Position numbers and translations under genes: made by a program | NCBI GenBank assembly: GCA_027083695.1 | Contig: JALWNI010000103.1 | Location: forward strand, 1 to 42,585 | Source of the DNA: Nautiliaceae bacterium | GTDB lineage: Bacteria > Campylobacterota > Campylobacteria > Campylobacterales > Nautiliaceae | Reading direction: 5' to 3' | DNA: 42,585 bases | The notes under the pieces: model-generated | What the model was told of the DNA's origin: nothing | Database searches by the model: none | Seen by the model: only the letters and a program-made list of their open reading frames with translations | In this document: positions 5,446-34,250 of the stretch, piece after piece | Numbering within the stretch: position 1 is the first letter of the stretch | How the letters are laid out: each line of letters starts with the position of its first letter

Positions 5446-6108
5446 ATGCATATTCCAGACGGATATTTATCACCAACAACAGTAGCAGTAAGTTATGCTA
5501 TTATGATTCCATTATGGGCTTATGGATTTAAAAAGCTTAAAGAAAAACTTGATGAAAAAACACTCCCTTTACTTGGCACATTAAGTGCATTGAGTTTTCT
5601 TATTATGATGTTTAATGTCCCTGTACCGGGAGGCACCTCTGGACACGCAATTGGAACGGCTCTAATTGCCATTATGTTTGATCCTTGGATAGCTTTTATG
5701 GCTGTGTCTTTTGTTTTGCTAATTCAAGCAGTAGTATTTGGAGATGGAGGTATTTCAACATGGGCTGTTAATTCATTTGATATGGCTTTTATTGCAGCGT
5801 TTGTAGGATATTATACTTTTAAATATTTAAAAGACAAAACAAAATTCGCACCTTTTATTGCAGGATGGCTTTCTATTAATGTAGCAGCATTAAGCGATTC
5901 AATTATTTTGGGAATTCAACCTATTTTCTGGCATGATGCGGCAGGACATCCATTATATTTTCCATTTGGTTTGAGTGTTGCTATTCCTTCAATGATGATA
6001 GCTCACCTTTTTGTATTTGGAGTGGTAGATGGGGCATTCACACAAATAGTTTATTCATTTTTACAAAAAAGAGCTGAACAAAAAATTAAAGAGGAGGTTG
6101 CAATATGA
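5446..6108 (+). CDS. cbiM: Nickel/cobalt ECF transporter substrate-binding permease CbiM/NikM
   Basis: ORF 220 aa; MHIPDGYLSP N-terminus (metal-binding), VPGGTSGHAIG; adjacent to hyp genes suggests Ni. Confidence 0.93.
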   Translation: MHIPDGYLSPTTVAVSYAIMIPLWAYGFKKLKEKLDEKTLPLLGTLSALSFLIMMFNVPVPGGTSGHAIGTALIAIMFDPWIAFMAVSFVLLIQAVVFGDGGISTWAVNSFDMAFIAAFVGYYTFKYLKDKTKFAPFIAGWLSINVAALSDSIILGIQPIFWHDAAGHPLYFPFGLSVAIPSMMIAHLFVFGVVDGAFTQIVYSFLQKRAEQKIKEEVAI

Positions 6109-6416
6109 ATAAAAAAGTAAAAGTTGCATTAGCGGTACTTGCCGTAATGCTTTTAGCGGTACCAATAGGATTATTAACCGATGCACCGGCATGGGGAGAA
6201 TGGGATAACGATTATTATAAAAAAGTATTGGGATTCATTCCAAAAGGAATGGAAAAATTTCACTCTTTTATTAATCCGATTTTACCTGATTACTCACTTC
6301 CGGGTACAAATGATGTAGTAGGATATTATGTAAGTGCTATTGTCGGAGCTATTTTAGTATTCGCAATATGGTTTATAATAGGAAAAATCCTTGCAAAAAA
6401 ACATTCTAATAACTAG
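6105..6416 (+). CDS. NikN/CbiN-like small membrane subunit
   Basis: ORF 103 aa, two predicted TM segments, position between M and Q components, GFIPKGMEKF in place of PDGLEK. Confidence 0.65.
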   Translation: MNKKVKVALAVLAVMLLAVPIGLLTDAPAWGEWDNDYYKKVLGFIPKGMEKFHSFINPILPDYSLPGTNDVVGYYVSAIVGAILVFAIWFIIGKILAKKHSNN

Positions 6417-6942
6417 AATATTTTTTATTCTGGTTTTTTTTACCCTTTTAAGTCTAAAAAACTATATATATCTTATATTTGTTATTCCTATTCTTTGGAT
6501 TATTAGTATAAACAATGCCTATTTTTTAACAAAAAGAGTGTTAAAAGCAATTATCATTTTTAATTTAGGCGTAACACTTGGTTATATTTTAATGGCATTT
6601 ATAAAAAATATTAATCCATGGCACTACATTATTTATATAAATTTAAAAGTTTTTGTATTGACATATTTTGTATTTTGGTTTTTTTCTGTTATTTCACCTG
6701 TTCAATTTATGTCATTTTCAAAAGATTTAGGATACCTGACAACAATAACATTATCCCAAATTTTTTCCTATAAAAAAACATTTGAAGATTTTAGATTAGC
6801 TTTTAAATCAAGAGTTTATAAATTAAAAGATAAAGACCCAAAATTTATAACAAGGACTTTTGACTTTTTCTTAACAAAGGCTCTAAAAGACGCAAATGAA
6901 AGAACATTAGCTATGAAAGCAAGAGGATTTTTCAATGATTGA
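6391..6942 (+). CDS. ECF transporter T component, CbiQ/NikQ-like
   Basis: ORF 183 aa; membrane protein with C-terminal ANERTLAMKARGF motif typical of EcfT/CbiQ; overlaps upstream gene. Confidence 0.8.
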   Translation: MQKNILITRIFFILVFFTLLSLKNYIYLIFVIPILWIISINNAYFLTKRVLKAIIIFNLGVTLGYILMAFIKNINPWHYIIYINLKVFVLTYFVFWFFSVISPVQFMSFSKDLGYLTTITLSQIFSYKKTFEDFRLAFKSRVYKLKDKDPKFITRTFDFFLTKALKDANERTLAMKARGFFND

Positions 6943-7684
6943 TATAAAAAACCTTTATTATAAATATGAAAAACATACAGCACTTGAAAATATAAATTTT
7001 AAAATTAACAAAAATGAAAAAATTGCTTTGCTTGGAAGCAACGGCAGTGGGAAATCAACACTTTTAAGAATTTTAGCCGCACTTTATTTTCCTACAAAAG
7101 GAGAATATTTCTTTAATAAAGAAAAAATAACAAAAAAAACTGCTAAAAAATTAAGGCCTAAAATTGGTATTCTCTTTCAAAATCCAGATTCAATGATATT
7201 TAATCCAACTGTATATGACGAACTCTCTTTTTCATTAAAAGAGTTCGGATTTAAAGATATCGATGAAAGAGTTAAAAAAGTTGCAAAAGAATTTAATTTA
7301 GAAAAATTTTTTAATAAATCTCCAATAAATCTAAGTGGAGGTGAAAAACAAAAAGTAATGCTTGCAAGTATTTTGGCTTACGAGCCAGAAATCTTATTGT
7401 TAGATGAACCAACAACGGCTATGGACCCTAGAACAACCGGGTGGTTTATTGATTTTTTGATTGAACTCAATAAAACTGTTATACTTGCAACTCATGATTT
7501 GGCAGTTGCATATGAAACATCTGATAGAGCAATAGTTTTAGATGAAAATCATCAAATAATTTTTGATGGTGAAATGGAAGAGCTTATGAAAAATTTAGAT
7601 ATTTTGATAAAAGCAAATCTAATTCATAAACACAAACATAAACATAAACGTTTTATACATTCACATTATCACACACATTTTTGA
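6935..7684 (+). CDS. cbiO: ECF transporter ATPase CbiO/NikO with His-rich C-terminus
   Basis: ORF 249 aa; Walker A GSNGSGKST, LSGGEKQKV, Walker B ILLLDEPT; tail HKHKHKHKRFIHSHYHTHF. Confidence 0.93.
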   Translation: MIDIKNLYYKYEKHTALENINFKINKNEKIALLGSNGSGKSTLLRILAALYFPTKGEYFFNKEKITKKTAKKLRPKIGILFQNPDSMIFNPTVYDELSFSLKEFGFKDIDERVKKVAKEFNLEKFFNKSPINLSGGEKQKVMLASILAYEPEILLLDEPTTAMDPRTTGWFIDFLIELNKTVILATHDLAVAYETSDRAIVLDENHQIIFDGEMEELMKNLDILIKANLIHKHKHKHKRFIHSHYHTHF

Positions 7685-7717
7685 TATAATAAACAATCAT
7701 TCATAAAAGGAGTAAAT

Positions 7718-8485
7718 ATGTGTACAGATTGCGGATGCGGTACAGGACATAAACATGAGCATAATCATTCTCATGAACATAAACATATTAATGAAGATAT
7801 AAAAAACAACCCTCAATTATCACATAAAGTAACTGTGATTGAAAAAATTTTAAGCAAAAACAATCAAATGGCGGATGAAATAAGGGCTGAATTTGATAAA
7901 CATCATATAACTTGCTTTAATATGATGAGCTCTCCCGGAAGCGGTAAAACTACAACACTTGAAAACCTAGCAGAAAAACTTCCTTTTAAATTTGGAGTAA
8001 TTGAAGGAGATCTTGAAACAAGCAGAGATGCTGATAGAATTAGAAACAAAGGTATCTGGTCTTTCCAACTTCAAACAGGAAGAGCGTGTCATTTAGATGC
8101 AGGAATGGTAAAACACGCAATTCCTCATTTTCCTTTTGAAGATACTGAAATAGCTTTTATTGAAAATGTAGGAAATTTGGTATGCCCTGCAAGCTATGAT
8201 GTAGGAGCTCATTATAATATGGTTTTTGTTTCAGTTCCGGAAGGAGATGATAAAATAGAAAAATATCCTGTAATGTTTAGAAAAGCCGATATTATAATTA
8301 TCACAAAAGCAGATATGCTTGAATTTTTTGATTTTGATGTACAAAGAGCAAAAGAAGCGGCACACAAACTTTCACCAAATGCACCGGTAATTTTATTAAA
8401 TAATAAAACAGGTGAAGGACTTGATGAAATAATTAACTGGATTAGTGAAAAAAGAAAAGAGCATTTAGAAAAGTTAGGAGCATAA
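7718..8485 (+). CDS. hypB: Hydrogenase nickel incorporation GTPase HypB
   Basis: ORF 255 aa; N-terminal CTDCGCG, His-rich stretch, SSPGSGKTT, FIENVGNLVCPA. Confidence 0.97.
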   Translation: MCTDCGCGTGHKHEHNHSHEHKHINEDIKNNPQLSHKVTVIEKILSKNNQMADEIRAEFDKHHITCFNMMSSPGSGKTTTLENLAEKLPFKFGVIEGDLETSRDADRIRNKGIWSFQLQTGRACHLDAGMVKHAIPHFPFEDTEIAFIENVGNLVCPASYDVGAHYNMVFVSVPEGDDKIEKYPVMFRKADIIIITKADMLEFFDFDVQRAKEAAHKLSPNAPVILLNNKTGEGLDEIINWISEKRKEHLEKLGA

Positions 8486-8486
8486 A

Positions 8487-8798
8487 ATGTGTTTGGCAAT
8501 ACCTAGTAAAGTACTTAAAATTGACGAAAATAATATGGCAGAAGTTGATACTCTTGGAGTTAAAAGAGTTGTTAGTCTTGATTTGATGCCAGAACCTGTG
8601 AAAGAGGGAGATTATGTACTTATCCATGTTGGTTATGCAATGGGTAAAATTGATGAAAAAGAGGCACTTGAAAGTTTAGAAGTGTATAAAATGCTAGCAG
8701 AAGCAGCCTCACAAGAAGAAGATGAAATACCGCCTGAAAAATTAGTTGTTGAAGACGGTCCTCTTTTGTATAAACCACCAAAAGAGGATGAAAAATGA
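8487..8798 (+). CDS. hypC: Hydrogenase assembly chaperone HypC
   Basis: MCLAIPSKV N-terminus, 103 aa, HVGYAMGKIDEKEA. Confidence 0.96.
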   Translation: MCLAIPSKVLKIDENNMAEVDTLGVKRVVSLDLMPEPVKEGDYVLIHVGYAMGKIDEKEALESLEVYKMLAEAASQEEDEIPPEKLVVEDGPLLYKPPKEDEK

Positions 8799-9910
8799 GT
8801 TTATCATTAAAAGATTTATATTCTAAATTCAGGGACCCAGCCACAATAAAAGCATTAAAAAAAGAGATTGAAAAAGAGGCTGTTAAACTAAAAGAACCTA
8901 TGAGGGTTATGGAGATATGCGGAGGACATACTCATACAATTATGAAATATGGCATAAAGCAAATATTGCCTGATAATATAAATTTTATTCACGGTCCTGG
9001 CTGTCCTGTATGTGTTATGCCAAAAGAGAGGATTGATCATGCAATAATTTTAGCAAAACAGCCTGATGTAATTTTAGCCACTCTTGGTGATATGATAAGA
9101 GTACCGGGGAGCACTTCAAGCCTTGCAAAAGCAAGAGCTGAGGGGGCAAATGTGGTTCCTCTTCATTCAACACTAGATGTACTAGAAATTGCAAAAGCTA
9201 ATCCAGATAAAAAAGTGGTCTTTTTTGCAATTGGATTTGAGACAACAACTCCTATGACTGCCGCACTTATGAAAAGAGCATTAAATGAAGGTGTTAAAAA
9301 TATATATTATCACATCAACCATGTCTTAGTTCCACCTCCAATGAGAGCAATCATGGATGGTGGAGAAGCAAGAATTAATGCTTTTATAGGCCCAAGTCAC
9401 GTAAGTGTAATAATTGGAGCAAAATCTTATGAATTTTTAGCAAAAGATTATAATACACCTGTGGTTGTAGCTGGATTTGAGCCTGTTGATGTAATGGAGA
9501 GCATTTTAATGCTTTTAAAACAAAAAAATGAAGGTAGATGCGAAGTAGAAATTCAATATAAAAGAGCCACAACTTATGAAGGAAACCTCGTTGCACAAAA
9601 ATTAATTGATGAATTTATGGAAGTTAGAGACTCTTTTAGATGGAGAGGTCTTGGAGACATTCCCTATTCAGCACTTAAACTAAAAGATAAATTCAGCGAA
9701 TTTGATGCTGAAAAAGTCTGGGCTGATGTATTGCCAAATAAGCCAATTGATGACCATAAATTATGTATTTGCGGGGAAATATTAAAAGGACTAGCAAATC
9801 CAAAAGAGTGTAAAGTATTTGCAACGGCTTGCACTCCAAGCAATCCTCTTGGAAGCTGTATGGTTAGTGATGAGGGAGCTTGCAATGCATATTACAGATA
9901 TGGGAGATGA
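8795..9910 (+). CDS. hypD: Hydrogenase maturation protein HypD
   Basis: ORF 371 aa; MEICGGHTHTIMKYG, HGPGCPVCV, FFAIGFETTTP. Confidence 0.97.
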   Translation: MSLSLKDLYSKFRDPATIKALKKEIEKEAVKLKEPMRVMEICGGHTHTIMKYGIKQILPDNINFIHGPGCPVCVMPKERIDHAIILAKQPDVILATLGDMIRVPGSTSSLAKARAEGANVVPLHSTLDVLEIAKANPDKKVVFFAIGFETTTPMTAALMKRALNEGVKNIYYHINHVLVPPPMRAIMDGGEARINAFIGPSHVSVIIGAKSYEFLAKDYNTPVVVAGFEPVDVMESILMLLKQKNEGRCEVEIQYKRATTYEGNLVAQKLIDEFMEVRDSFRWRGLGDIPYSALKLKDKFSEFDAEKVWADVLPNKPIDDHKLCICGEILKGLANPKECKVFATACTPSNPLGSCMVSDEGACNAYYRYGR

Positions 9911-9980
9911 GTGGGCGGATGAGTCTGGGTATATTGGTGAATGAGTATATGAGTGAATTAAAAAACAGATGAATAAAAAG
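9911..9980 (+). repeat. GGATGAGT/GTATGAGTG-type repeat tract directly after the hypD stop codon
   Basis: gtgggcggatgagtctgggtatattggtgaatgagtatatgagtg resembles the minus-strand reading of 440-538. Confidence 0.55.
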
Positions 9981-10003
9981 TTTAGAGTATTAAAAGGAGT
10001 ATT

Positions 10004-10981
10004 ATGAAAATCACTCTTGCATACGGCGGCGGTGGAGAAGAGACAAACAAATTGATAAAAGATCTTTTTTATGAAAATTTTAAGAATGATATTTTAATAA
10101 AAGCAGAAGATGCTGCAATAATAAATATAGATGGTAAAACAGCTTTTACAACTGATTCATTTACAATAGATCCTATATTTTTTAATGGTGGAGATATTGG
10201 AAAATTAAGTATTGCTGGAACTTGTAATGATTTAGCCATGATGGGAGCCGAGCCTAAGTTTTTAAGTATCTCTTTTATAATTGAAGAAGGATTACATTTT
10301 AATGATTTAAAAAAGATCGTAGATTCAATAAGCACAGAATTAAAAAAAGTAAATGCAAAAATAGTTTGCGGAGATACTAAGGTTGTACCAGCTGGAAGTG
10401 TAGATAAAATTTTTATAAATACTAGCGGAATTGGAAAAGTTATAAAAGATAATATTAGCGCACATAACCTAAAAATAGGTGATAAAATATTAGTTAGCCG
10501 GGATATCGGAAGACACGGAAGCGTAGTTTTAGCTAAAAGATTTGGTGTAGATACTGAAATTAATAGTGATTGTAAAATACTTTGGGATGAAGTAAAAGCC
10601 CTAATTGATGAAGGAATTGAAATTAAAGCTATGCGTGATGCAACAAGAGGCGGGCTTAGTGCAGTATTAAATGAATGGGCTGAGGCAAGCAATATTAGGA
10701 TCGAAATAGAAGAAGATAAAATTCCAATAAGTGATGAAGTAAGCGGACTTTGTGAAATTTTTGGATTCGAACCAATGGATTTGGCAAATGAAGGAACTTT
10801 TATTGTTGCGGTAGAAAGCAAAGATGCTGAAAAAACAAAAGAAATTCTAAAAAAATTTAATAAAAATGCTTCAATCATAGGAGAAGTGGTTGAAGGTGAA
10901 AAAGTTGTATTAAAAACACCTTATGGCTCTAAAAGATATATAGATTTGCCAAAAGGTGAATTATTACCAAGGATATGTTAA
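10004..10981 (+). CDS. hypE: Hydrogenase maturation protein HypE
   Basis: ORF 325 aa; AIRM-like domains, RDATRGGL, C-terminal LPRIC. Confidence 0.96.
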   Translation: MKITLAYGGGGEETNKLIKDLFYENFKNDILIKAEDAAIINIDGKTAFTTDSFTIDPIFFNGGDIGKLSIAGTCNDLAMMGAEPKFLSISFIIEEGLHFNDLKKIVDSISTELKKVNAKIVCGDTKVVPAGSVDKIFINTSGIGKVIKDNISAHNLKIGDKILVSRDIGRHGSVVLAKRFGVDTEINSDCKILWDEVKALIDEGIEIKAMRDATRGGLSAVLNEWAEASNIRIEIEEDKIPISDEVSGLCEIFGFEPMDLANEGTFIVAVESKDAEKTKEILKKFNKNASIIGEVVEGEKVVLKTPYGSKRYIDLPKGELLPRIC

Positions 10982-11655
10982 TGCAGGAAAAAATAGTAAA
11001 GATGTTCGATGAAATAGCTCCAAGTTATGATATAGTAAATAGAATAGTGAGTTTTGGAAACGATAAAATTTGGAGAGAAAAAGCAATTAAAGAAGTTTTA
11101 AAATTTTCAAATCCTAATCCAAAAGTATTAGATGTGGCTTGTGGAAGCGGAGATATGATAGAAGTTTGGAGAAAATATACTAACGACATAACCGGACTTG
11201 ACCCAAGTATAGGAATGCTTGAAATTGCTAAAAAAAGATTTAAAGATGTTGATTTTTACCAAGGTCTTGCACAAGATCTCCCTTTTGAGAATCAAACTTT
11301 TGAATGCATAAGTATTTCATTTGGAATAAGAAATGTTGTAGAAATAGATAAAGCAATAGATGAATTTGCAAGAGTATTGAAAAAAAATGGAATATTACTT
11401 ATTTTGGAATTTACAAAACCAGAAAAAAAATCTACACTTAGAAATTGTATTGATTTTTATTCAAATAAAATACTTCCAAAAATTGGAGGAATTATCAGCG
11501 GAAATAAAGAGGCCTATGAATATCTTCCAAATTCTATTCAAAACTTCTATACATTAACAGAGCTTTGCAAAAAATTAAACACTAAATTTGAAGTTTTAGA
11601 GGCAAAAACATTTAAGTTATCCCCTACTTCTATGATAATAGCAAAAAAAATATAA
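10981..11655 (+). CDS. ubiE: Demethylmenaquinone methyltransferase (UbiE/MenG)
   Basis: SAM motif VLDVACGSGDM, SFGIRNV, GNKEAYEYLPNS; ORF track starts at 10975, ATG at 10981 overlaps the hypE stop. Confidence 0.9.
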   Translation: MQEKIVKMFDEIAPSYDIVNRIVSFGNDKIWREKAIKEVLKFSNPNPKVLDVACGSGDMIEVWRKYTNDITGLDPSIGMLEIAKKRFKDVDFYQGLAQDLPFENQTFECISISFGIRNVVEIDKAIDEFARVLKKNGILLILEFTKPEKKSTLRNCIDFYSNKILPKIGGIISGNKEAYEYLPNSIQNFYTLTELCKKLNTKFEVLEAKTFKLSPTSMIIAKKI

Positions 11656-11680
11656 AGATTAATTCTTTATATTTTTATTA
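11642..11680. terminator. Bidirectional terminator hairpin embedded in both convergent stop regions
   Basis: AATATAAAG (11649-11657) / CTTTATATT (11665-11673) with T/A runs on both flanks between ubiE and hydE. Confidence 0.7.
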
Positions 11681-13365
11681 ATAATCGCATTCCCAAATGC
11701 CTCTATACTACCACTTATTTGAAGAGCTTTTGGGATATATACTTTATAATTTTTATCAATATAGCTATAAATTTTATTTAAAAATTCACCCTTAAATAAA
11801 TCTCCAACAATTATAGCTCCATTTAAACCATTATCTTTGTGAAAAGAATCATACTGATTTGATAAAAATTCAGCAAAACTCTCTACCACACCATATGATA
11901 AAAGATAATTGTCAACACCTGCTAGATTAAAACTCATAACCGTTCTAATTGCCCATAAAGGATTTAAGTTGTTTTTATCCATTTTATAATCAATTCTAGG
12001 ACCTTTTTTGGCCATAGCAGAACTTGATAATTCTAATATTTTTTCAAATCCCTTATCTATATTATCAGCAACTCCTAACAATATTCCAATTAATCCCCAT
12101 AAATAATAAATTCCTTTTTTTTCGCTATTTATATCAGTATTTATGGCATTTTCAAAAAGATTTGGTCTTTTTTCTTTAAAATTTTTAATAAGTTTTGCTC
12201 CTGTTTCGTTCATTATAGCAATCTGAGAAAAAATATCCTCAAAATTTTCAAAAGTAAACTTAAAATCAATATATTCAATTAATCCAAATTTAGGAGAATT
12301 AATAAGTATCTTATTCTCATCTTTATAAAAACAAAACCCCATTATATTTTTATCTTCTAATTCCCATTGTTCCAAAACACCATAAAATCCACTAAAAACG
12401 GGTGATGTCTCTTTTGAATTGATCTTTCCTAAATTTTCTAATCTATCTATTACTCCATTTTTATATCCATACTTTTTATATTTTCCTTCTGCTTGTATAT
12501 TTTTTTCAAATTTAGGGATTATACCCCTTTCACCTCTTTCAATTAAAATATCTTTATTTCTAGAATCTGTTACAACTGCAAAAAGAGGATCCTCTAATTT
12601 CACTTCAAAACTTAAATCTTTATTATTATCACTTTTTTTAAATCCTAAAAGCTCATACTCACTTATTTCAAATAAGAGCTCTGTTACCATACAATCAGGA
12701 AGTTTTACATAAAATGCAGGAATAGAAGAATTAAATGTTTTTTTAAATTCAATATTTGTTTTTAATTTCACAAAAGGCTTTTCGATACTTGCCAAAGCTT
12801 TTGCATCTCCTTCAAATGACATAAAATATTTAGCAATTGCCGCTAAATCTTTTGCTATAATAAAATCAGCATTTTCTAAATCTTTACTAACTTCAAAACT
12901 CCCATTCATAGTTTGAATAAAAATATTTTCATTTTTAAGTTTTTTAGCTAAATTTTCAAAAAATTCTTTTCTTTTATCTTTACTAATCCATTCACCTTTT
13001 GCTTCATAACCACATACTTCACAATGATGAAAAATATCAAAGAAGTGTTCATTTCTTTCATCTTTAACTTCTCTAAGGCATTTTGGACAAGGTGGAAGTG
13101 AAATTTTTGGAAAGTTTCTTACTAAATCATCTTTAAATTCTTCAACAACCTCAGCTCTTAAAGATTTTAAGAAAATTGACAAAGGTAGCTCTGCTGAAAT
13201 TTTTTTTGAAAAATTCTCAATTTCCTCCTCACTTCCTTCTACATAAGCATATAAATTTTCTAAATCTCTACTCAGTCCAAGTTTAATATCTTTTGCATTT
13301 CTTATAAGAATTTTTTCTATAACACCGTTATTTGAATCTAATTTAAAAACAAATCTTAAAATCAT
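11659..13365 (-). CDS. hydE: HydE, hydrogenase accessory protein, HypF-like
   Basis: ORF 568 aa last in hydABCDE order; CPKCLREVKDERNEHFFDIFHHCEVCGYE aligns with HypF zinc finger. Confidence 0.8.
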   Translation of the reverse strand: MILRFVFKLDSNNGVIEKILIRNAKDIKLGLSRDLENLYAYVEGSEEEIENFSKKISAELPLSIFLKSLRAEVVEEFKDDLVRNFPKISLPPCPKCLREVKDERNEHFFDIFHHCEVCGYEAKGEWISKDKRKEFFENLAKKLKNENIFIQTMNGSFEVSKDLENADFIIAKDLAAIAKYFMSFEGDAKALASIEKPFVKLKTNIEFKKTFNSSIPAFYVKLPDCMVTELLFEISEYELLGFKKSDNNKDLSFEVKLEDPLFAVVTDSRNKDILIERGERGIIPKFEKNIQAEGKYKKYGYKNGVIDRLENLGKINSKETSPVFSGFYGVLEQWELEDKNIMGFCFYKDENKILINSPKFGLIEYIDFKFTFENFEDIFSQIAIMNETGAKLIKNFKEKRPNLFENAINTDINSEKKGIYYLWGLIGILLGVADNIDKGFEKILELSSSAMAKKGPRIDYKMDKNNLNPLWAIRTVMSFNLAGVDNYLLSYGVVESFAEFLSNQYDSFHKDNGLNGAIIVGDLFKGEFLNKIYSYIDKNYKVYIPKALQISGSIEAFGNAIINKNIKN

Positions 13366-13949
13366 CTATTTTCTCCTAATTCACAACCTTTTAATGATGC
13401 TTGCGGAACTCCTCTTTTATATGAAGTTCTTGCAATTTCTTGAATATCAACATTTGGATTTTTAATTTCACACTCAACACCAAGTTTTGAAAGTTCATTA
13501 ATCAAAATTCTTTCCATTAATTTACTGGCTTTTTTTACTGGCTCAGTAATTGTAAATGTAGTATCTTCACCAATTACATAAGGAACGACTCCTATAATTT
13601 TCGTTTCAGGCAAATCTCCCATCATATGTATCATTTCAAGCGTTTGGAGCATTTCAACTTCATGAGCGCTTCCTTGCCAGCTTATACACTCAGGCACATC
13701 CAAAAAATCAAAAAAATAGACATCTCCTATTTTAGCATCATCAACATCCACAGTATCAAAAATAAACACTTTATCATATTCTACAATAATAGGAATTAAA
13801 CGCTGAGCAAGTGTTCCACCGTCTATCAAATCAACCTGATGATTTTTAAATTCATATTTTTCATCAAGATAATTTATCAAATGAACACCTATACCCTCAT
13901 CCCCAAATAATATATTCCCTATACCTAAAACTAATATTTTCATTAACAA
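13362..13949 (-). CDS. hydD: [NiFe]-hydrogenase maturation endopeptidase HydD
   Basis: ORF 195 aa; LGIGNILFGDEGIGVHLI protease motif, DGGTLAQRLI. Confidence 0.93.
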   Translation of the reverse strand: MLMKILVLGIGNILFGDEGIGVHLINYLDEKYEFKNHQVDLIDGGTLAQRLIPIIVEYDKVFIFDTVDVDDAKIGDVYFFDFLDVPECISWQGSAHEVEMLQTLEMIHMMGDLPETKIIGVVPYVIGEDTTFTITEPVKKASKLMERILINELSKLGVECEIKNPNVDIQEIARTSYKRGVPQASLKGCELGENR

Positions 13950-13966
13950 CCTTTACTATGGATAAT

Positions 13967-14033
13967 ATAAGTGAAAAGAGAAAAATTAAAGTATTTAACT
14001 TTTCTTTTTTCACTTATTCCCCAAAAAGGGGAA
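13967..14033 (-). other. Intra-operon RNA hairpins between hydC and hydD
   Basis: 24-bp near-perfect arms 13967-13990/13994-14017 with 3-nt loop, preceded (transcript sense) by TTCCCC-AAAAA-GGGGAA at 14017-14033. Confidence 0.7.
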
Positions 14034-14037
14034 AAGA

Positions 14038-14760
14038 TTAATGTTCTTCTCCTTCTTTTTCCCATTTCATTCCAGAGAAAATCGCATCCATTCCACCATT
14101 TTTACCAAATACTGCATTATATACAGCCATATAAATATGAATGAATACAACAATAATAATCAACCACATAAAAATGTGATGCCAAAGTCTTACATATGCA
14201 AGTCCACCGCAAATACTTTCAACCCATTTAGCAAATGGATATAATGCTCCACCTAATCCTTGATGATACACTTCTGCATATAAGGCAAGTCCTGTAATTA
14301 TAATTCCATAAAAGAAAACATAAAGCATAGTATATGCCCAAAATTGTAATGGATTATATACACCTTTTGTATGAGGGTGTTTTGAAACCAACAAATAATA
14401 TCCAATTTGTTGTAAAGCAACTTTAATATTAAATGCATCTAAAATTGATTTTCTCTCATATTTTGCTTCTGGAAAAAAGAAAAAATAAATTGTTTTATAA
14501 AGAACTGCTCCAATCATTGCAAAACCAAAAATAATATGCCACTCTCTAATATTTGCTTGTAAAAATCTTGTTGGAGTGGCAGAAGGAGTACCAAAAGTAA
14601 TATAAGGATTTGCAATATAAAAACCAGTTGCTACAAGAGCGAAAATAGAAATAGCTCTTATCCAATGTTGCCATCTATACCCAGCGGAAAATTCAATTCC
14701 GCCAAGATAATTTCCTAATACTTTTAAAAATTTCATTTTTGCCTCCTTAGCAAGCACCAT
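14038..14760 (-). CDS. hydC: Hydrogenase cytochrome b subunit HydC
   Basis: ORF 240 aa; multi-TM, YRWQHWIRAISIF, RLWHHIFMWLIIIVVFIHIYMAVY. Confidence 0.93.
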   Translation of the reverse strand: MVLAKEAKMKFLKVLGNYLGGIEFSAGYRWQHWIRAISIFALVATGFYIANPYITFGTPSATPTRFLQANIREWHIIFGFAMIGAVLYKTIYFFFFPEAKYERKSILDAFNIKVALQQIGYYLLVSKHPHTKGVYNPLQFWAYTMLYVFFYGIIITGLALYAEVYHQGLGGALYPFAKWVESICGGLAYVRLWHHIFMWLIIIVVFIHIYMAVYNAVFGKNGGMDAIFSGMKWEKEGEEH

Positions 14761-16483
14761 ATAATGGGTCTACTCTAAATTCACCAAGTTTTTTACCTTT
14801 AACATCCATTACATGTACTGCACATGCAATACAAGGGTCATAGCTATGAATATTTCTAATAATTTCAAGCGGTTTTGTTGGGTCTTGAAGTTTCATACCA
14901 ATTAAGTTTGCTTCATAAGCACCTTTTTTACCATTACCATCCATTGGTCCTGCATTCCAAGTTGATGGAACTACTGCTTGCCAGTTTTCAATTTTTCCAT
15001 CTTTAATTCTACACCAGTGAGATAACATTCCTCTTGGAACATCACCAATATATCTTCCTTTATATTCTTTGTTTTTATCTATAACATATGGAGCTACTGT
15101 ACTTTGGTCAACTTTTAAATTTTCTACGAGATTATTAAATGCTTCAATACCATAATCAGCAATTGTTTTTGTTTGAAGCATTCTTGCAGCAGTTCTTCCA
15201 AGTGTTGTGAATAGCGCTTCTGCTGGAAGTCCTGTTTGTGCTAAGAATTCATCAACAACTTTTCTTACTTTTTCATTTCCTTTTGCATAGTTAACAGCCA
15301 TACATGCAAGAGGACCAACTTCCATAGGTGTTTTATCATATCTTGGAGATTTAATCCATGAATATTTACCTTCTGGATTAACAACTTTTGTAGGAACAAC
15401 TTTACCTTCACCATTAATACTTTCACCATCAACATATCCAGTATAATCAGGAATAGTTTTACCATTATATGGTTGTAAGAATCCTGTATCTTTATACCAA
15501 GAGTGAGTAACATCTTCTTCAATTTTGCTCTCATCAATTTCATAGAATTTACCAAGATCAAAATCTTTAATATATCCACAAGCATCAAATAACCAAGAAT
15601 TAGCACCTGTTTGCATTGTTTTATATGTAATGTAATTACCAAGATTATTTTTTTGAGTTACACTTGGTTCTTTGCCGTAAGCCTCAGCTGCCATTACAAT
15701 ATCAGCATAATAAGCTCTGTTTGTATAATCGGCAAGCTCTTTAAATTTAGTCATATATTCAGCAAGTCTTGCAGGATCTTGTAAATCCATAATACAAGTC
15801 ACACCACCAACAGTTAAACTTTGTGGATGTGGGTTTTTACCACCAAAAATTGCCATCATTTGTGCTGCAATTCTTTGCATTTCAAGAGTTTTTAAATAAT
15901 GGCTTAGAGCAATTAAGTTTTGCTCAGGTGTAAATCTCATTGTTGGATGTCCCCAATATCCATTTTTAAATGGTCCTAAATCTCCTCTTGCTGCAAATGC
16001 TTTTACTCTTTTTTGAACTTCTGCTAACTCATCAGCACCAGTTGCAATTGGTTCATATCCTTTTGGAACATATTTAAATGCCAAATCACTTGCTTTTTTA
16101 GGATCTGCTTTAAGTGCACTAATAATATCAACCCAGTCAAGCGCATGTAATTGATAAAAATGAACAATATGGTCATGATAAAATAGAGCCATATTTAATA
16201 ATGTTCTAACAAGCTCAGCATTTAGAGGAGGTTTAATTCCTAATGCATTCTCTACTGCTACAATTCCAGCTCTATAATGTGAATATGTACATACCCCACA
16301 AATTCTTTGTGTCATGAAACCAGCATCTCTTGGATCTCTGCCTTTTAAAATAATTTCAATACCTCTAAAAAGTGTCGCACTTGAATAAGCATCTTTAATC
16401 ACATTATTTTCATCAAGTACAACTTCTACTCTTAAATGTCCTTCAATTCTTGTAATCGGGTCTACTACTACTCTTTTAGCCAT
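14747..16483 (-). CDS. hydB: Uptake [NiFe]-hydrogenase large subunit HydB
   Basis: ORF 578 aa; RICGVCTYSH and DPCIACAVH with C-terminal extension VMDVKGKKLGEFRVDPLYGAC. Confidence 0.98.
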   Translation of the reverse strand: MAKRVVVDPITRIEGHLRVEVVLDENNVIKDAYSSATLFRGIEIILKGRDPRDAGFMTQRICGVCTYSHYRAGIVAVENALGIKPPLNAELVRTLLNMALFYHDHIVHFYQLHALDWVDIISALKADPKKASDLAFKYVPKGYEPIATGADELAEVQKRVKAFAARGDLGPFKNGYWGHPTMRFTPEQNLIALSHYLKTLEMQRIAAQMMAIFGGKNPHPQSLTVGGVTCIMDLQDPARLAEYMTKFKELADYTNRAYYADIVMAAEAYGKEPSVTQKNNLGNYITYKTMQTGANSWLFDACGYIKDFDLGKFYEIDESKIEEDVTHSWYKDTGFLQPYNGKTIPDYTGYVDGESINGEGKVVPTKVVNPEGKYSWIKSPRYDKTPMEVGPLACMAVNYAKGNEKVRKVVDEFLAQTGLPAEALFTTLGRTAARMLQTKTIADYGIEAFNNLVENLKVDQSTVAPYVIDKNKEYKGRYIGDVPRGMLSHWCRIKDGKIENWQAVVPSTWNAGPMDGNGKKGAYEANLIGMKLQDPTKPLEIIRNIHSYDPCIACAVHVMDVKGKKLGEFRVDPLYGAC

Positions 16484-16486
16484 CTA

Positions 16487-17614
16487 TTACTCCTTAGGAT
16501 TTTTAATTGCACTAATTGCTGCGTGTGCTGCTATTGCTACACCTGCGATTGTTAAAATCGTAATTCCAACTTTATCAGCTGTCGCATCTGCACTAACTGA
16601 TTCAAATTTGTGATTTGCAAGAGGCTCTTCATAAGGTGCCATTGAATCCCAAAAATCTGGTTCACTACATCCAATACATCCATGTCCTGCTTGTACCGGC
16701 CAAGATGTATGTTGGTTAAATCTCTCTCTTGAACAGTTGTTGAAAGTATATGGACCTTTACATCCTACTTTATATAAACAAAATCCATTCATTGCTTCTT
16801 GTGAACCAAACTCTTCTACAAATTCACCTGCATCAAAATGTCCTCTTCTTTCACATAAATCATGAATTCTAAGTCCATAAGCAAATTTTGGTCTATTGAA
16901 ATTATCAACTGCTGGCAATTGACCAAAAAGAATTACATACATAATAGTTCCAACAATATTTCTATCACTTGGAGGGCATCCAGGAACGTTAATAACTTGT
17001 TTATTTACAACTTTATGCACACCTACTGCACCTGTTGGATTAGGGTACGCAGCCTGAATACCACCAAAAGAACTACATGTACCAACTGATATAATAGCCT
17101 TTGCATCTTTTGCGGTTCTTCTTACTTTTTCAAGTCCTGTTTCTGCTTCTGGACCTATTGTTAAAAAGTCTCCATTATCTTTTGTCGGTACTCCACCTTC
17201 TACGCATAGAATATATCTACCTTTAAATTTTTTAACTGCTTCTTCGAAGTTTTGTTCTGCTTGCCATCCAGCAGCCGCCATAATAGTGTCATGATATTCC
17301 AAATTGATATAATTAAAAATTAAATTATCAATTGTAGGAGCATCAGTTCTTAGTAAACTCTCACTACATCCGGTACATTCTGCCAAATGCAACCAAATAA
17401 CAGGAAGTCTATCGCTGACTTCTGCTGCTTCTGCTACAACAGGAGCAAATGACGCTGGAAGTCCTAATGCTACTGCCATAGTACCTGACCATTTTAAAAA
17501 ATCCCTTCTTGTAAAACCATTTTCTTCTAAAATTTCTGAAAGTGGTTTTGATGCGATACCTGGAAGTTTTCTAAGTTCCGCAATCCTTTGTTTTACTTTT
17601 TGTACATCTAACAT
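16487..17614 (-). CDS. hydA: Uptake [NiFe]-hydrogenase small subunit HydA (Tat substrate)
   Basis: ORF 375 aa; Tat motif TRRDFLKWSG, CTGCSES, C-terminal TM anchor. Confidence 0.98.
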   Translation of the reverse strand: MLDVQKVKQRIAELRKLPGIASKPLSEILEENGFTRRDFLKWSGTMAVALGLPASFAPVVAEAAEVSDRLPVIWLHLAECTGCSESLLRTDAPTIDNLIFNYINLEYHDTIMAAAGWQAEQNFEEAVKKFKGRYILCVEGGVPTKDNGDFLTIGPEAETGLEKVRRTAKDAKAIISVGTCSSFGGIQAAYPNPTGAVGVHKVVNKQVINVPGCPPSDRNIVGTIMYVILFGQLPAVDNFNRPKFAYGLRIHDLCERRGHFDAGEFVEEFGSQEAMNGFCLYKVGCKGPYTFNNCSRERFNQHTSWPVQAGHGCIGCSEPDFWDSMAPYEEPLANHKFESVSADATADKVGITILTIAGVAIAAHAAISAIKNPKE

Positions 17615-17653
17615 TTCGTTCCCCTTAAATGAAGATTAATTCAATACAAACAA

Positions 17654-17682
17654 ATTATACATAAATATATATTCATTTTCAA
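17654..17682 (-). promoter_or_regulatory. Predicted sigma70 promoter for hydABCDE
   Basis: Minus-strand TTGAAA (17677-17682) - 17 nt - TATAAT (17654-17659). Confidence 0.65.
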
Positions 17683-17712: not shown

Positions 17713-18864
17713 TTAATGACTCACACAAATAGCACAAATATCAAAACATTTAAATATAAAATCTGCATATTTCTCATCTTCATTAATAAGTGCAGCTTGT
17801 GCGGGTGAGAGATTTTGTTTATTACCATTTGCAAGATTAAATTGAGTAGGTACAATAATGTTATATTTCTTTATTTTTTCATTTTCAATTTCTATTTCGT
17901 GTATTAAACTTCCTCTTGGAGCCTCAATTGAAATTTTCCCTTTTCCATTTTTGTTTCTTGGTTTTATAAAATTTTTTTCGTTAATATCAATTTTATCAAT
18001 CTCTTTTATTAAATATTCAAATATAAGATTCACTTCATATAACCTTGCAAAAATTCTGGTATAAACACTATCTTTATGTTCTTCATATATTTTATTAATC
18101 AAAGGATTTTTTAAATTTCTAGCAAGAGGACCCACTTCATAAAATTTATCATTATATAAAGCATTTTTATTAAAAGAAGAGGTTTTTTCTTCATTTACAA
18201 ATTTTATTTCTCCATTTGCTCTAAAAAACAGATTATTCCCTAATACCAAAAATTTATTTAAACTTTTACCAATATTTTTGGGAATATCCTCAAAAAGTAT
18301 CTCTAAATCTTTTGAATATCCTTCAATATTCATAATTTCCTGATATCTTTCAAACATTTTCAGTAAAAAATTTTTGATTTTTATAATTTCTAGATTTGTC
18401 AAATCACTTGTAATTCCTCCTGCTATCGCATATGAATTATGCGGAAACTGACCTGCAATTAGTGCTATAATCTTTGCTATATCTCTGCTAAATTCTAATG
18501 CTTTAAAATAATCAATATCTTTTATAGAAGGAAACAGCGTTAAATAAAACCATTTAATATGATTTTGAATAATTTCAAGACCTACGGTTATTTCCCTTAA
18601 TATTTTTGCTTTTTTAGTAATTTTTATTTTTAATGCATTTTCAATCACCTCAGCAGTGGCAATCAGATGGGAATGTCCACATATCCCACAAACTCTTGGA
18701 TTAATTACACTTGCATCATTATAATGTCTATTTTTTAAAAAATCTTCTATTCCTCTATATTGCCAAAACTCAATTTCTGCAAATTCTATTATATTTTGGT
18801 TTTTATGTAATTTTAAAGTAGCTTCACCTTCAATTTTTGTAATTATTTTTTTAGTTATCTTCAT
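17713..18864 (-). CDS. Cytosolic [NiFe]-hydrogenase large subunit, sensor-like (no C-terminal extension)
   Basis: ORF 383 aa; RVCGICGHSH, EAPRGSLIHEI, ends exactly at DICAICVSH*. Confidence 0.85.
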   Translation of the reverse strand: MKITKKIITKIEGEATLKLHKNQNIIEFAEIEFWQYRGIEDFLKNRHYNDASVINPRVCGICGHSHLIATAEVIENALKIKITKKAKILREITVGLEIIQNHIKWFYLTLFPSIKDIDYFKALEFSRDIAKIIALIAGQFPHNSYAIAGGITSDLTNLEIIKIKNFLLKMFERYQEIMNIEGYSKDLEILFEDIPKNIGKSLNKFLVLGNNLFFRANGEIKFVNEEKTSSFNKNALYNDKFYEVGPLARNLKNPLINKIYEEHKDSVYTRIFARLYEVNLIFEYLIKEIDKIDINEKNFIKPRNKNGKGKISIEAPRGSLIHEIEIENEKIKKYNIIVPTQFNLANGNKQNLSPAQAALINEDEKYADFIFKCFDICAICVSH

Positions 18865-19711
18865 CTATCAGCTTTCTTTCAAGTCTTTCATTTCTTAAAC
18901 TTTTCGCAACTCCTGATATTGTCAAATATGCTCGTTTACTTACCCCTATTGGAATTTCTGCTGGAATACCCATAAACTTTTCTGTCATAAAAAGATTTTT
19001 TTTAGGGAAATTTCTTTCAGTACATCCAAAACATGGAGTTCCGGCTCTTGGTTTTGAATTTACTTCATTCCATAATATTTTATTGCAGCTACTATGAGTA
19101 AAAGGTCCTTGACAGCCTTGTTCATAAAAAAGACAACCTTCTTTTTCTCCAAAATTCTTAGCATCAATTTTCCACTCGAAATATTCATTTCTTATACATC
19201 CCATATGAGAGGTATAGCTAAATATCTCTTTTGGTCTAAATTCATTATCTAATAACATTTTTTTATTTTCTATTAGCATTTCAATAGCATATGCAATCCA
19301 TTCAGGATGAGGAGGGCAGCCGGGAACTGCAATAATTTTATCTTTAAATGGAAAAAATATCCCTTTTTTATTTTTATTAAATAATACTCCCTCTCCAAAA
19401 ATACCACCATAAACAGCACATGTCCCAATTAACAATACCTTTTTTGATAATTTAATCATTTGAGTAATTAAATCTATAAGATCGAAATCCATTCTTAAAA
19501 AGTTCTCTTTTATCGCTCCTTCAATTACAAGCAAATCACATTTTTGAATTTTAAATTCATTTGTCGGAAATAAAGGATGATAAAGAAGTTTTATTTTTTG
19601 TAAAAGAGTTTTTATTTCTGGATAATTATAAAAAGAATGAGAGCATCCATAACAACTAACCCCATCAATCCATATAATTTTAGGCTTTGAGAGCATTGTA
19701 AATATTCTCAC
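18851..19711 (-). CDS. Cytosolic [NiFe]-hydrogenase small subunit (no Tat signal), HupU/group 2-like
   Basis: ORF 286 aa; GVSCYGCSHSFYN, GTCAVYGGI, VPGCPPHPEW, PRAGTPCFGCTE; no twin-Arg leader. Confidence 0.85.
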   Translation of the reverse strand: MRIFTMLSKPKIIWIDGVSCYGCSHSFYNYPEIKTLLQKIKLLYHPLFPTNEFKIQKCDLLVIEGAIKENFLRMDFDLIDLITQMIKLSKKVLLIGTCAVYGGIFGEGVLFNKNKKGIFFPFKDKIIAVPGCPPHPEWIAYAIEMLIENKKMLLDNEFRPKEIFSYTSHMGCIRNEYFEWKIDAKNFGEKEGCLFYEQGCQGPFTHSSCNKILWNEVNSKPRAGTPCFGCTERNFPKKNLFMTEKFMGIPAEIPIGVSKRAYLTISGVAKSLRNERLERKLIDEDN

Positions 19712-20261
19712 TTACAGGTTCAATATATTCATCTAAATCTTTACCTAAAATTCCTTCTCTAAATAAAAACGCAAGTCCTCCTATATATCCCATAAAAAGA
19801 CCAAATGCAGCAAAAAAATCTTGATTTTTTAATTCTTTTCTTCTAACACCTTCTTCAAAAAATATCATTATTTCAGTTACAAACGCACTAACACAAAGCA
19901 TCCCTTCGCAGCCATTATTAAATATCTCTTTATTTGATAAATAAACTCTCATAAAATAATCCACAAGCTCAGGTTCACTTTTTGCCATTTTAAAATAGAG
20001 TTCTACAATTTTTTTGATTTTTTCTTTACTTGGTATTTCAATTTCATTTATTTTTCTTATCTCCTCTCCAAATTTTTTAGAAGTATATATTAACAGTTCT
20101 TTCGCCAAAGACTCTTTTGAGGGGAAATAATTATACATATTTCCAACACTCATTCCCATTTCTTTTGCTATATCTGATATTGTCGTGTTGTAAAAACCTT
20201 GTTTTGCGAATAGATTAAGAGCGGTTTTCATTATTTCAAGTTTTTTCTCCTCTTTACTCAT
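19680..20261 (-). CDS. TetR/AcrR-family transcriptional regulator
   Basis: ORF 193 aa; N-terminal HTH TTISDIAKEMGMSVGNMYNYFPSKESL; 32-nt overlap with downstream hydrogenase gene. Confidence 0.9.
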   Translation of the reverse strand: MSKEEKKLEIMKTALNLFAKQGFYNTTISDIAKEMGMSVGNMYNYFPSKESLAKELLIYTSKKFGEEIRKINEIEIPSKEKIKKIVELYFKMAKSEPELVDYFMRVYLSNKEIFNNGCEGMLCVSAFVTEIMIFFEEGVRRKELKNQDFFAAFGLFMGYIGGLAFLFREGILGKDLDEYIEPVSENIYNALKA

Positions 20262-20321: not shown

Positions 20322-20666
20322 ATGCATGAATTTTCAATTGTTGATTCACTTCTTCATTTGGCAGAAGAACACGCTGCAAAACACAATGCAAAAAAAGTAA
20401 CAAAACTAGAAATAAAAATAGGTGTATTAAGCGGAGTAGAACCAGAACTCTTAAAAACAGCCTTTGAAACTTTTAAAGAGGGAACAATTTGTGAGGATGC
20501 TGAATTTATTATGAATATTCAACCTGTAATTATTAAATGTAAAGAGTGTGGATTTGAAGGTAAACTGAATAAAGATGAATATCTTTGTCCAAAATGCAAT
20601 AGTGGTAATTTAAAAATTATAGATGGAGAAGATATGTATTTAATGAGTTTGGAACTTGAAGAATAG
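20322..20666 (+). CDS. hypA: Hydrogenase nickel incorporation protein HypA
   Basis: ORF 114 aa; MHEFSIVDSLL, CKECGF...CPKCNS zinc site. Confidence 0.97.
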   Translation: MHEFSIVDSLLHLAEEHAAKHNAKKVTKLEIKIGVLSGVEPELLKTAFETFKEGTICEDAEFIMNIQPVIIKCKECGFEGKLNKDEYLCPKCNSGNLKIIDGEDMYLMSLELEE

Positions 20667-31986: not shown

Positions 31987-32001
31987 GTGCTTAAAAAGTG
32001 C
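31987..32001. promoter_or_regulatory. Candidate operator GCACTTTTTAAGCAC (minus strand) upstream of the tetraheme cytochrome gene
   Basis: Two GCAC half-sites spaced 11 bp, upstream of TATAAT (31971-31976, minus). Confidence 0.5.
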
Positions 32002-33628
32002 TTTTTTTATTTAAATCTATAACAAAAATCGCACCTTTGTCAGAATTATATGCAAAAAGTTCTCCATTAAAATGTTGATTTATAATAACTTTACTCATAT
32101 AAAGGCCTATTCCTGTACCTTGCGATTGAAATTTGGTAGTAAAATATGGTTCAAAGATTTTATCTTTTATCTCTTCTGGGACACCTCCCGCGTTATCCTC
32201 AATTTCTATTTTTTTCCCTCTTATTCGAATCCAAATTTTTCTATTTTTAATATCTCTTTCTTTAAGAACATCTATTGCATTATTTATTATATTTAATATA
32301 ACTTGCGAAAACTCACTTCTATAACCCAAAATTGATTCTGTTTTTATAAATTCGACTTCTACATTTACTTTATTTTGTTTCAATCTTCCTTCTATTAATT
32401 TTAAAGCATCTTCAATAATTTCTCTTGGACAAAACTCAACTTTTTTAGTGTCTTTTTTAAAAAAATTAGTAAAATCATCAATAGTTTGTGACATATAATT
32501 TATTTGTGCATAAGCTTGATTTTTAAATTTTTCAATAAAATCTGGTGTTAATTTATTTTTACTGACAGCCAATTCAAAATTTTGAATTAATAATGAAAGT
32601 CTAGTTAAAGGATGTCTCCATTGATGTGCTATATTACCAAGCATTTCACCAAGAGCCGCTAATTTACTTTGAGCTATAAGCAATTGTTCTTTTTCTTGTC
32701 TTTTTTCAATCTCTTGTTTTACTCTTTTATCCAGTTCCTGATAAAATGAATATAACGGTTTTGAGAAAAACATTCCAAGAGGAATAGCAAAAAATATAGA
32801 AATTATTATCATAATAAGTGTTAAAGTTTTTGATATTTCATTTGTTTTATTAATCAAATTTTTATTTTGTATAAAAACCATTTTCATTTTTTTATTTAAT
32901 TTTTTAACATATATTCCATCTGTAACAAAACCTTCATCAGTTTTTAATATTTTCTTATTTAAAAAATAATTAAAAACATCATTTAAATTTTTCTCTTTAT
33001 ATATATCCGAAAAAAGAATATTTCCAAATTTATCTATAACTAAAAAATGATAAAAATTATTATTTTTAAAAAGTCCTCTAATTAGAGCTTTTACTTCAAT
33101 AAAACCTGGGTATTTTTCTATTTTAACAGGCGAAAAAGCAATAAATTCAATACCATTATTTTTAAATCTTTCTTTAAAAAAGATATTTTTGTCACTTTTT
33201 AAATTTTCAACTTTTAAAGGTTTCCCATAATTGTTACAATAAATAGTATTAGCAAATTTTTTACAGGATATTATATCTTTACCATAATTATTGAAATAAT
33301 CAATCTGTTTTAAATCATTATTTGCATATAACATTGTTTTAAAAACCGACTTCAAAATTTCATCATTAGGTGTAAAAGTAGAATTAAAAATATCGTTTTT
33401 AGCAAGAGCAAGTGTAGTATTTTTAATAGTATTTTCTTTTGCTTTATAATTTAAATAAATATTTTCTGCCAAAATTCTGATTTTATCTTCAAATTCTTGT
33501 GTTGTTAATCGAGTAAACATATATATAGAAGTGTAAGTTGTTATAACAATAATTACAAATGCAAATATTACAAAAGCAAAGGTTAAATCAAATTTAAAAT
33601 CACTTGAATTTTTCAATTTTATATCCAA
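31991..33628 (-). CDS. Membrane sensor histidine kinase
   Basis: ORF 545 aa; periplasmic sensor between two TMs, GNIAHQWRHPLTRLS H-box, NAIDVL N-box, GTGIGLYMSKVI G-box. Confidence 0.95.
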   Translation of the reverse strand: MDIKLKNSSDFKFDLTFAFVIFAFVIIVITTYTSIYMFTRLTTQEFEDKIRILAENIYLNYKAKENTIKNTTLALAKNDIFNSTFTPNDEILKSVFKTMLYANNDLKQIDYFNNYGKDIISCKKFANTIYCNNYGKPLKVENLKSDKNIFFKERFKNNGIEFIAFSPVKIEKYPGFIEVKALIRGLFKNNNFYHFLVIDKFGNILFSDIYKEKNLNDVFNYFLNKKILKTDEGFVTDGIYVKKLNKKMKMVFIQNKNLINKTNEISKTLTLIMIIISIFFAIPLGMFFSKPLYSFYQELDKRVKQEIEKRQEKEQLLIAQSKLAALGEMLGNIAHQWRHPLTRLSLLIQNFELAVSKNKLTPDFIEKFKNQAYAQINYMSQTIDDFTNFFKKDTKKVEFCPREIIEDALKLIEGRLKQNKVNVEVEFIKTESILGYRSEFSQVILNIINNAIDVLKERDIKNRKIWIRIRGKKIEIEDNAGGVPEEIKDKIFEPYFTTKFQSQGTGIGLYMSKVIINQHFNGELFAYNSDKGAIFVIDLNKKSTF

Positions 33629-34250
33629 TGCCTCTTATATTTTTAATAAAATTTTCTTTTAATTTACTTCTTAATTTTTTTACTTGTGTTCTAATTGTAT
33701 TATTACATATATCTTTTCCATCCCAAACATAATCTCTAAGTCTTTCAAGCTCTACAACTTGACCAATATTTTTAATAAGCATTTCAAGAAAATATTTTTC
33801 ATTTTGCGTTAAATCAACTTCTTCATTTTTATAAAAAAGTTTAAGTTTATCCAAATCAAATTTATAATTTTCAGTAATTTTTATTTCATTGGTATTTTTA
33901 AACACTAGTCTTTTTATTCTAAGTTCTAATTCTTTAAGTTCAAAAGGTTTTTTAATATAATCTGCTGCTCCAATATCAAAAGCTTGCTCTATATGATTTA
34001 TATCCGAATAAGCAGTAATAAAAATAACAGGAACATCTTTTGCATAATTTTTAAGTTCTTCATAAAGTTCATAACCGTTCATTTCAGGCATATTTATATC
34101 CAGTAAAAAAATATCATAATGATCGGGATATACTTCTTCTAATGCTTTTAATGGTGAAGAGTAATAATCTACCCTATTATCTTGTAATTCTAAATAATTT
34201 TTTATTGATTCTCCGATAAACTCATCATCTTCTATTAATAAAATTCTCAT
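33600..34250 (-). CDS. OmpR-family response regulator
   Basis: ORF 216 aa; LLIEDDEFIGESI, LLDINMPEMNGYEL, winged-helix NTIRTQVKKLRSKL. Confidence 0.95.
   Translation of the reverse strand: MRILLIEDDEFIGESIKNYLELQDNRVDYYSSPLKALEEVYPDHYDIFLLDINMPEMNGYELYEELKNYAKDVPVIFITAYSDINHIEQAFDIGAADYIKKPFELKELELRIKRLVFKNTNEIKITENYKFDLDKLKLFYKNEEVDLTQNEKYFLEMLIKNIGQVVELERLRDYVWDGKDICNNTIRTQVKKLRSKLKENFIKNIRGIGYKIEKFK

Follow-up and report, generated by a model that had tools for sequence, protein, structure and literature searches.

Which signal does a TetR-family regulator answer to when it is encoded together with a [NiFe] hydrogenase, and which promoters does it control? The question is raised by the window analysed here, a stretch of 42,585 nt from a Nautiliaceae bacterium (Nautiliaceae MAGs are the closest named relatives of its genome). 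According to ORFs and to Pfam and NCBIfam matches, its minus strand carries, in this order, the genes for the TetR and for the small (S) and large (L) subunits of a cytosolic hydrogenase, then hydA, hydB, hydC and hydD, which encode a membrane-bound uptake hydrogenase (MBH), and a gene for a 568-aa protein, at what we take to be the position of Wolinella HydE (Table 1). To our knowledge, all known H2 sensors work through a histidine kinase. The original prediction for this locus was non-canonical H2 sensing with the TetR as output.

As had been predicted, the S ORF overlaps that of TetR by 32 nt when it is read from the GTG start (17 nt from the ATG at 19696), S and L overlap by 14 nt (S ends at 18851 and L starts at 18864), and TetR is divergent from hypA, whose start at 20322 leaves a gap of 60 bp. 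Besides TetR, Pfam recognized L (NiFeSe_Hases, 3.8e-44), S (Oxidored_q6 and NiFe_hyd_SSU_C) and HypA. hypF is also present in the window, further along than hypA, as are hypB to hypE. A further statement, that the locus lacks a histidine kinase and an NtrC-type response regulator, holds in part: among the genes scanned we saw no NtrC-type regulator, but a histidine kinase with an OmpR-type regulator does occur in the window. This pair lies 12 kb away and adjoins genes for an ABC transporter and its solute-binding protein, and no link to hydrogenase was seen for it.

Table 1. Genes and predicted sites in the window (PWM, position weight matrix score).
Feature	Position	Strand	Basis or remark
TetR-family regulator, 193 aa, C118-x4-C123 (CEGMLC)	19680..20261	-	ORF, TetR_N 4e-16
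Cytosolic [NiFe] hydrogenase small subunit (S)	18851..19696, alternative GTG start 19711	-	ORF, families
[NiFe] hydrogenase large subunit (L), 383 aa, no C-terminal extension	17713..18864	-	ORF, NiFeSe_Hases
hydA, Tat-exported MBH small subunit, predicted target	16487..17614	-	ORF, families
hydB, MBH large subunit, predicted target	14747..16483	-	ORF, families
hydC, cytochrome b subunit	14038..14760	-	families
hydD, maturation protease	13362..13949	-	families
568-aa conserved protein, end of hyd operon	11659..13365	-	without Pfam match
hypB, hypC, hypD, hypE, possible target operon	7718..10981	+	
hypA, divergent from TetR	20322..20666	+	
Predicted TetR operator TGAATTAATCTTCATTTA	17626..17643	-	PWM 19.0; between hydA -10 box and start codon; genus-conserved
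Weaker palindrome match, hydA -35/-10 spacer	17662..17679	.	PWM 10.4; where the other Nautiliaceae genera have their site
Predicted hydA promoter TTGAAA-17-TATAAT	17654..17682	-	11/12 matches
Possible TetR site 15-32 bp upstream of hypB	7686..7703	-	PWM 13.3
Histidine kinase	31991-33628		
OmpR-type regulator	33600-34250		

We surveyed 397 genomes sampled from the phylum Campylobacterota. The TetR profile matched in 115 of them and the L profile in 114, and by this tally of profile matches 112 genomes have both. An intact TetR without the hydrogenase was found in two genomes (G175 and G375); the remaining odd cases are a TetR fragment (G235), a hydrogenase at a contig edge (G323) and a distant large subunit (G024), and all other genomes have neither gene. 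Among 60 relatives about 34 carry TetR and hydrogenase, essentially the same genomes for both, with the gene order TetR-S-L and usually with hydABCD next. The S ORF directly follows that of TetR in 136 loci and overlaps it in 106, and S and L overlap in 117 of 123 loci, counts that at times include the same genome twice and are not independent. The hosts are vent and sediment bacteria related to Campylobacter, in which the small cytosolic hydrogenase is almost always accompanied by a TetR. The TetR-S-L arrangement recurs phylum-wide, far beyond chance, and is not a local oddity. Absence of TetR from the loci of relatives had been named as a sign against the original prediction; the neighbourhood survey revealed instead near-universal linkage of the pair in Campylobacterota. 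A second, independent TetR-hydrogenase pairing is present on a Runella plasmid (L322:3145-4829), where two TetR genes lie directly upstream of a group 2a hydrogenase, with no similar Cys pair in the alignment.

Judged from its sequence, the hydrogenase has a sensor-like anatomy. The Tat motif RRxF[LI] was found in 0 of 137 small subunits, and the S of the window is without a Tat leader, next to a HydA that has one. Its L stops at DICAICVSH, three residues past the last Cys, next to a HydB with an extension; both features are as predicted. In 126 of 128 L proteins the chain ends three residues after the last Cys, which leaves a maturation protease nothing to remove. L keeps the four NiFe Cys and the equivalents of E28, R509 and D574. 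The canopy Asp (which we take to be D118 in E. coli Hyd-1 numbering) is replaced by Ser in the L of the window, and is lost in 103 of 110 L proteins and kept in 7. In addition, the L2 motif of the window is D-I-C and not the canonical D-P-C, the Pro being lost, and the L1 motif ends with His in 107 of 110 L proteins. In Nautiliaceae, S and L evolve faster (median identity 70 and 65%, respectively) than TetR (89%) or the MBH subunits (85-89%). The S of the window keeps all FeS-cluster Cys ligands. Most other Campylobacterota families have Asn or Asp in place of the second Cys of the proximal CxxC; at C18 of the window S, a proximal-cluster ligand, Nautiliaceae have Cys, and the clade's remaining families Asn or, in rare cases, Asp.

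In FastTree phylogenies of S and of L, the Campylobacterota proteins form one clade, apart from groups 2a and 2b, with a support of 1.0. As both trees place S and L outside group 2b, the kinship with HupUV/HoxBC that had been proposed is not supported. With HoxBC/HupUV (group 2b), S/L has in common the cytosolic location, the lack of a Tat leader and of a cleavable extension, and a regulator encoded alongside; HoxBC/HupUV control an energy-yielding hydrogenase, as is predicted here for the MBH. Unlike in HoxBC/HupUV, however, L1 ends with His and not Gln, the canopy Asp is lost, and the output gene is that of the TetR, with neither a kinase (HoxJ/HupT) nor an NtrC-type regulator (HoxA/HupR) adjoining. 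S/L would act like a regulatory hydrogenase, yet is not a member of group 2b. Catalytic group 2a hydrogenases (Huc-type) share with S/L the fold and, for most Campylobacterota though not for the window, the Asn that replaces the second CxxC Cys of the proximal cluster, but they form a separate clade, have a C-terminal extension and keep the canopy Asp (5/6). The original prediction gave as its alternative a catalytic group 2d enzyme. Campylobacterota relatives (huaSL) are indeed filed under group 2d (PMC12286921), but this label does not settle function, and a published account leaves the role of the group unsettled, with regulation as one possibility (PMC10052474). The members of group 2d, among them Aquifex Hase III and the HupSL/HuaSL of Campylobacterota, are cytosolic, like S/L; our trees compare the Campylobacterota proteins with groups 2a and 2b. 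The papers that we found on group 2d describe neither a general TetR linkage nor an MBH operator or the Cys pair. Another group 2 hydrogenase, encoded between hypD and hypE in G081 (L226:3989-6423), has a CxxD proximal motif and a C-terminal extension, and no TetR link.

The TetR carries the C-X4-C pair that had been noted, found in its translation as NGCEGMLCVSA. Cys118 and Cys123 are invariant in 136 of 136 hydrogenase-linked TetRs and are missing from 7 of 8 unlinked paralogs, the eighth (CDNGYEC) lying in a hydrogenase region. In this region (L083 of G042, 5517-16088) TetR-S-L is divergent from hydABCD, and two TetR paralogs (43% and 39%), one with the altered motif and the other without any, follow the hyd operon. 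Stand-alone paralogs without the Cys pair (L223, L224, L227, L228, L229, L230) occur in genomes that also have a linked TetR, and might share the palindrome described below. The match to PF00440 (4e-16) and the fold both identify the protein as a TetR: the AlphaFold2 model (pLDDT 89) has the standard all-helical fold, which Foldseek matched to TetR structures with a probability of 1.00. In the model the Cys pair lies where a helix begins, behind the loop modelled with the least confidence (residues about 101-120). Although the best NCBIfam match is FadR (NF053878, 7e-13), the protein is not a FadR, as the match reaches 48.7 bits against a cut-off of 200 and spans residues 4-113 only; it shares the HTH similarity with FadR-like regulators, and differs from them in the C-x4-C pair and the hydrogenase partner. 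Some TetR proteins, such as NemR, sense redox state through reactive Cys, with functional Cys in the ligand-binding domain. The TetR studied here would resemble them in this respect; we know of no hydrogenase partner for NemR-type proteins.

The linkage, the Cys pair, the sensor-like anatomy and the palindrome with its distribution can be read from the genomes themselves, and on this basis we modestly favour TetR-S-L as an H2-responsive switch, in which the genes for H2 use are controlled by TetR and the presence of H2 is signalled to it by the sensor-like, co-translated hydrogenase. In the mechanism that we infer, TetR would bind the palindrome TRAATGANTATTCATTYA in the hydABCD promoter and, depending on the lineage, also the promoters of nickel-uptake and hyp genes, group-4 hydrogenase-like operons and reductases such as nrfHA, and would repress these operons when H2 is absent. 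S/L, made from the same transcript, would serve to detect H2 in the cytosol and not to gain energy; with H2, reduced S/L would alter TetR, probably via contact and Cys118/Cys123, and the operon would be released. A part for the Cys pair in the signal is plausible, if not quite probable. Rather unlikely, in our estimate, is the specific version in which the hydrogenase passes H2 electrons directly to TetR, the FeS chain of S docking at and reducing the Cys118/Cys123 site. The two Cys would then act as a pair of thiols, or would bind a cluster or metal that the dimer shares, and the electron output of the enzyme would switch the repressor without phosphorylation or a diffusible ligand.

These features point to a so far undescribed kind of H2 sensor, with a TetR as output. 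If true, this would define the set of genes for H2 use in the chemolithoautotrophs that dominate vents, and would yield a small promoter-repressor module responsive to H2, testable in ordinary laboratory strains; the function of group 2d, so far unsettled (PMC10052474), would gain an answer from a TetR output acting on a known operator. The N. profundicola genome paper calls the enzyme an H2-sensing group 2 hydrogenase, in passages that do not mention the TetR (PMC2628731). In the open-access literature, to which our search was confined with subscription papers outside its scope, we found no link of the TetR to MBH control.

We consider it moderately likely that the hydrogenase is the H2 input of TetR, because of the near-universal co-transcription, the overlapping genes, the sensor-like anatomy and the fast evolution, and because the Cys pair tracks the hydrogenase linkage and no soluble H2 uptake is found in S. 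denitrificans (PMC4149538). Alternatively, TetR may regulate the MBH but sense a small molecule or redox state by itself, S/L being a catalytic group 2d hydrogenase of the same regulon that feeds the reductive TCA cycle by reducing a low-potential carrier. Small molecules are the usual signals of TetR proteins, and this, together with the modelled standard fold, like that of ligand-binding regulators such as FadR, would count against an S/L input; the conserved NiFe ligands, E28, R509 and D574, and the ferredoxin-linked role suggested for relatives in Aquifex and Sulfurimonas, would suit catalysis. The main difficulty comes from G175 and G375, which keep TetR, the Cys pair and the palindrome without an S/L pair, so that TetR may work without S/L; either these are recent losses, or TetR senses redox alone. 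On the other hand, S/L follows TetR, mostly with overlap, in nearly every genome, whereas the MBH need not adjoin it. A catalytic S/L is also at odds with the loss of the canopy Asp, with its fast evolution, with the lack of soluble activity in S. denitrificans, with transcripts that are near-absent in S. multivorans and lowered by H2 in A. butzleri, and with A. aeolicus Hase III being hard to detect. We regard this alternative as unlikely. Two expression results count against the H2 switch that we prefer: S. multivorans hydB is transcribed in all conditions tested (PMC5357620), which endogenous H2 could explain, and the fall of huaSL with H2 in A. butzleri is not predicted by simple shared derepression.

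That TetR controls the MBH regulon appears very likely. The palindrome was first spotted by side-by-side comparison of Nautiliaceae hydA promoters, in or after the -35/-10 region, and was found before hydA in most TetR-bearing genomes; it presumably resembles the B. subtilis FadR box. At least 13 of the 18 consensus positions match in 102 of 109 hydA-type promoters of TetR-bearing genomes, compared with about 7% in shuffled sequence. Using held-out PWMs (trained on other lineages than those scored; threshold 12), we detected the site in 13 of 15 Nautiliaceae, 14 of 15 Arcobacteraceae-type (a family identity inferred from gene content) and 69 of 79 remaining hydA promoters, while shuffled promoters reach 12 in 0.6%. 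The lowest scores among the hydA-type promoters seem to belong to a more distant, second copy of the hydrogenase within the locus. Among MBH promoters of TetR-less genomes, 0 of 13 reach PWM 10; these controls include the same-family G010 and two members of genus g13 (G028, G046), of which other members have TetR. Since motif statistics within the window are not significant (6 matches versus 4.7 expected), the case for the operator rests on comparison between genomes. The position of the predicted operator at the hydA promoter, a strong one by prediction, suits repression. Another repeat before hydA in the window (AAGATTAA...TTAATCTT) was dropped, as relatives do not conserve it.

The adjacency of TetR and hupSL has been noted before, in Sulfurospirillum multivorans, and was read as repression of hupSL (PMC5357620). 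TetR genes often regulate their neighbours; nevertheless, that the TetR simply represses the hydrogenase operon to which it belongs seems quite improbable, because the strong conserved palindrome lies before the MBH genes, in trans too (a site with PWM 20-25 precedes MBH genes that do not adjoin TetR in 6 of 6 cases examined, one of them about 750 kb away), whereas among 144 promoters of TetR genes PWM 12 is reached in just 14, in some within the hypA coding start. The palindrome over the hypA start codon is probably a coding constraint on MHE-S. The inverted repeat AACCTTTTTT...AAAAAAGGTT between hypA and TetR consists of two ribosome-binding sites and is not an operator. With no convincing operator between hypA and TetR, the proposed regulation of hypA is not supported, and neither is the group 2b kinship. 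The linkage, the Cys pair, the predicted operator and the H2-induction data below strengthen the original idea of a non-canonical H2-sensing system with a TetR output; the direct redox control of TetR by the hydrogenase that it also contained may be doubted, given the two genomes that have TetR and its Cys pair but no hydrogenase. Least probable of all is that another regulator binds the palindrome and the link to TetR is coincidental, for, although TetR binding is a prediction and Cys-less paralogs occur in some of the genomes, the palindrome follows the presence of TetR at the level of a genus and of a family, orthologs strongly conserve the HTH region, and paralogs are found in few genomes only.

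Candidate sites were also found beyond hydA. The possible site before hypB in the window parallels sites before NiCoT-hypBCD in other families; a site precedes a NicO-like nickel transporter with hypBCD in G023, G052, G037 and G054 and, in Nautiliaceae, sites precede complex-I-like membrane genes, which are probably group-4 hydrogenase operons. Four TetR-bearing Arcobacteraceae-type genomes have a site before nrfHA (PWM 13.7-19.6), which is missing (3.8) from a member of the same genus that lacks TetR. A site before pssA in G000 and G002 is a coincidence within the start-codon region. Scans that allow up to two mismatches give noise in AT-rich genomes; apart from hydA, nrfHA and NiCoT-hypBCD, the regulon members are therefore tentative.

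Published data on A. butzleri hDNRA1 agree with the predicted regulon: with H2, expression of both hynAB sets and of nrfA increased and that of huaSL decreased (PMC12286921). Since 1191 of 2260 genes changed in this response (PMC12286921), the match with the predicted targets is not specific, and the agreement is not proof. In G404, perfect or near-perfect palindromes (L311, L313) lie before a NapC-type/multihaem cytochrome pair and a molybdopterin oxidoreductase, and by these sites the regulon may extend to electron acceptors.
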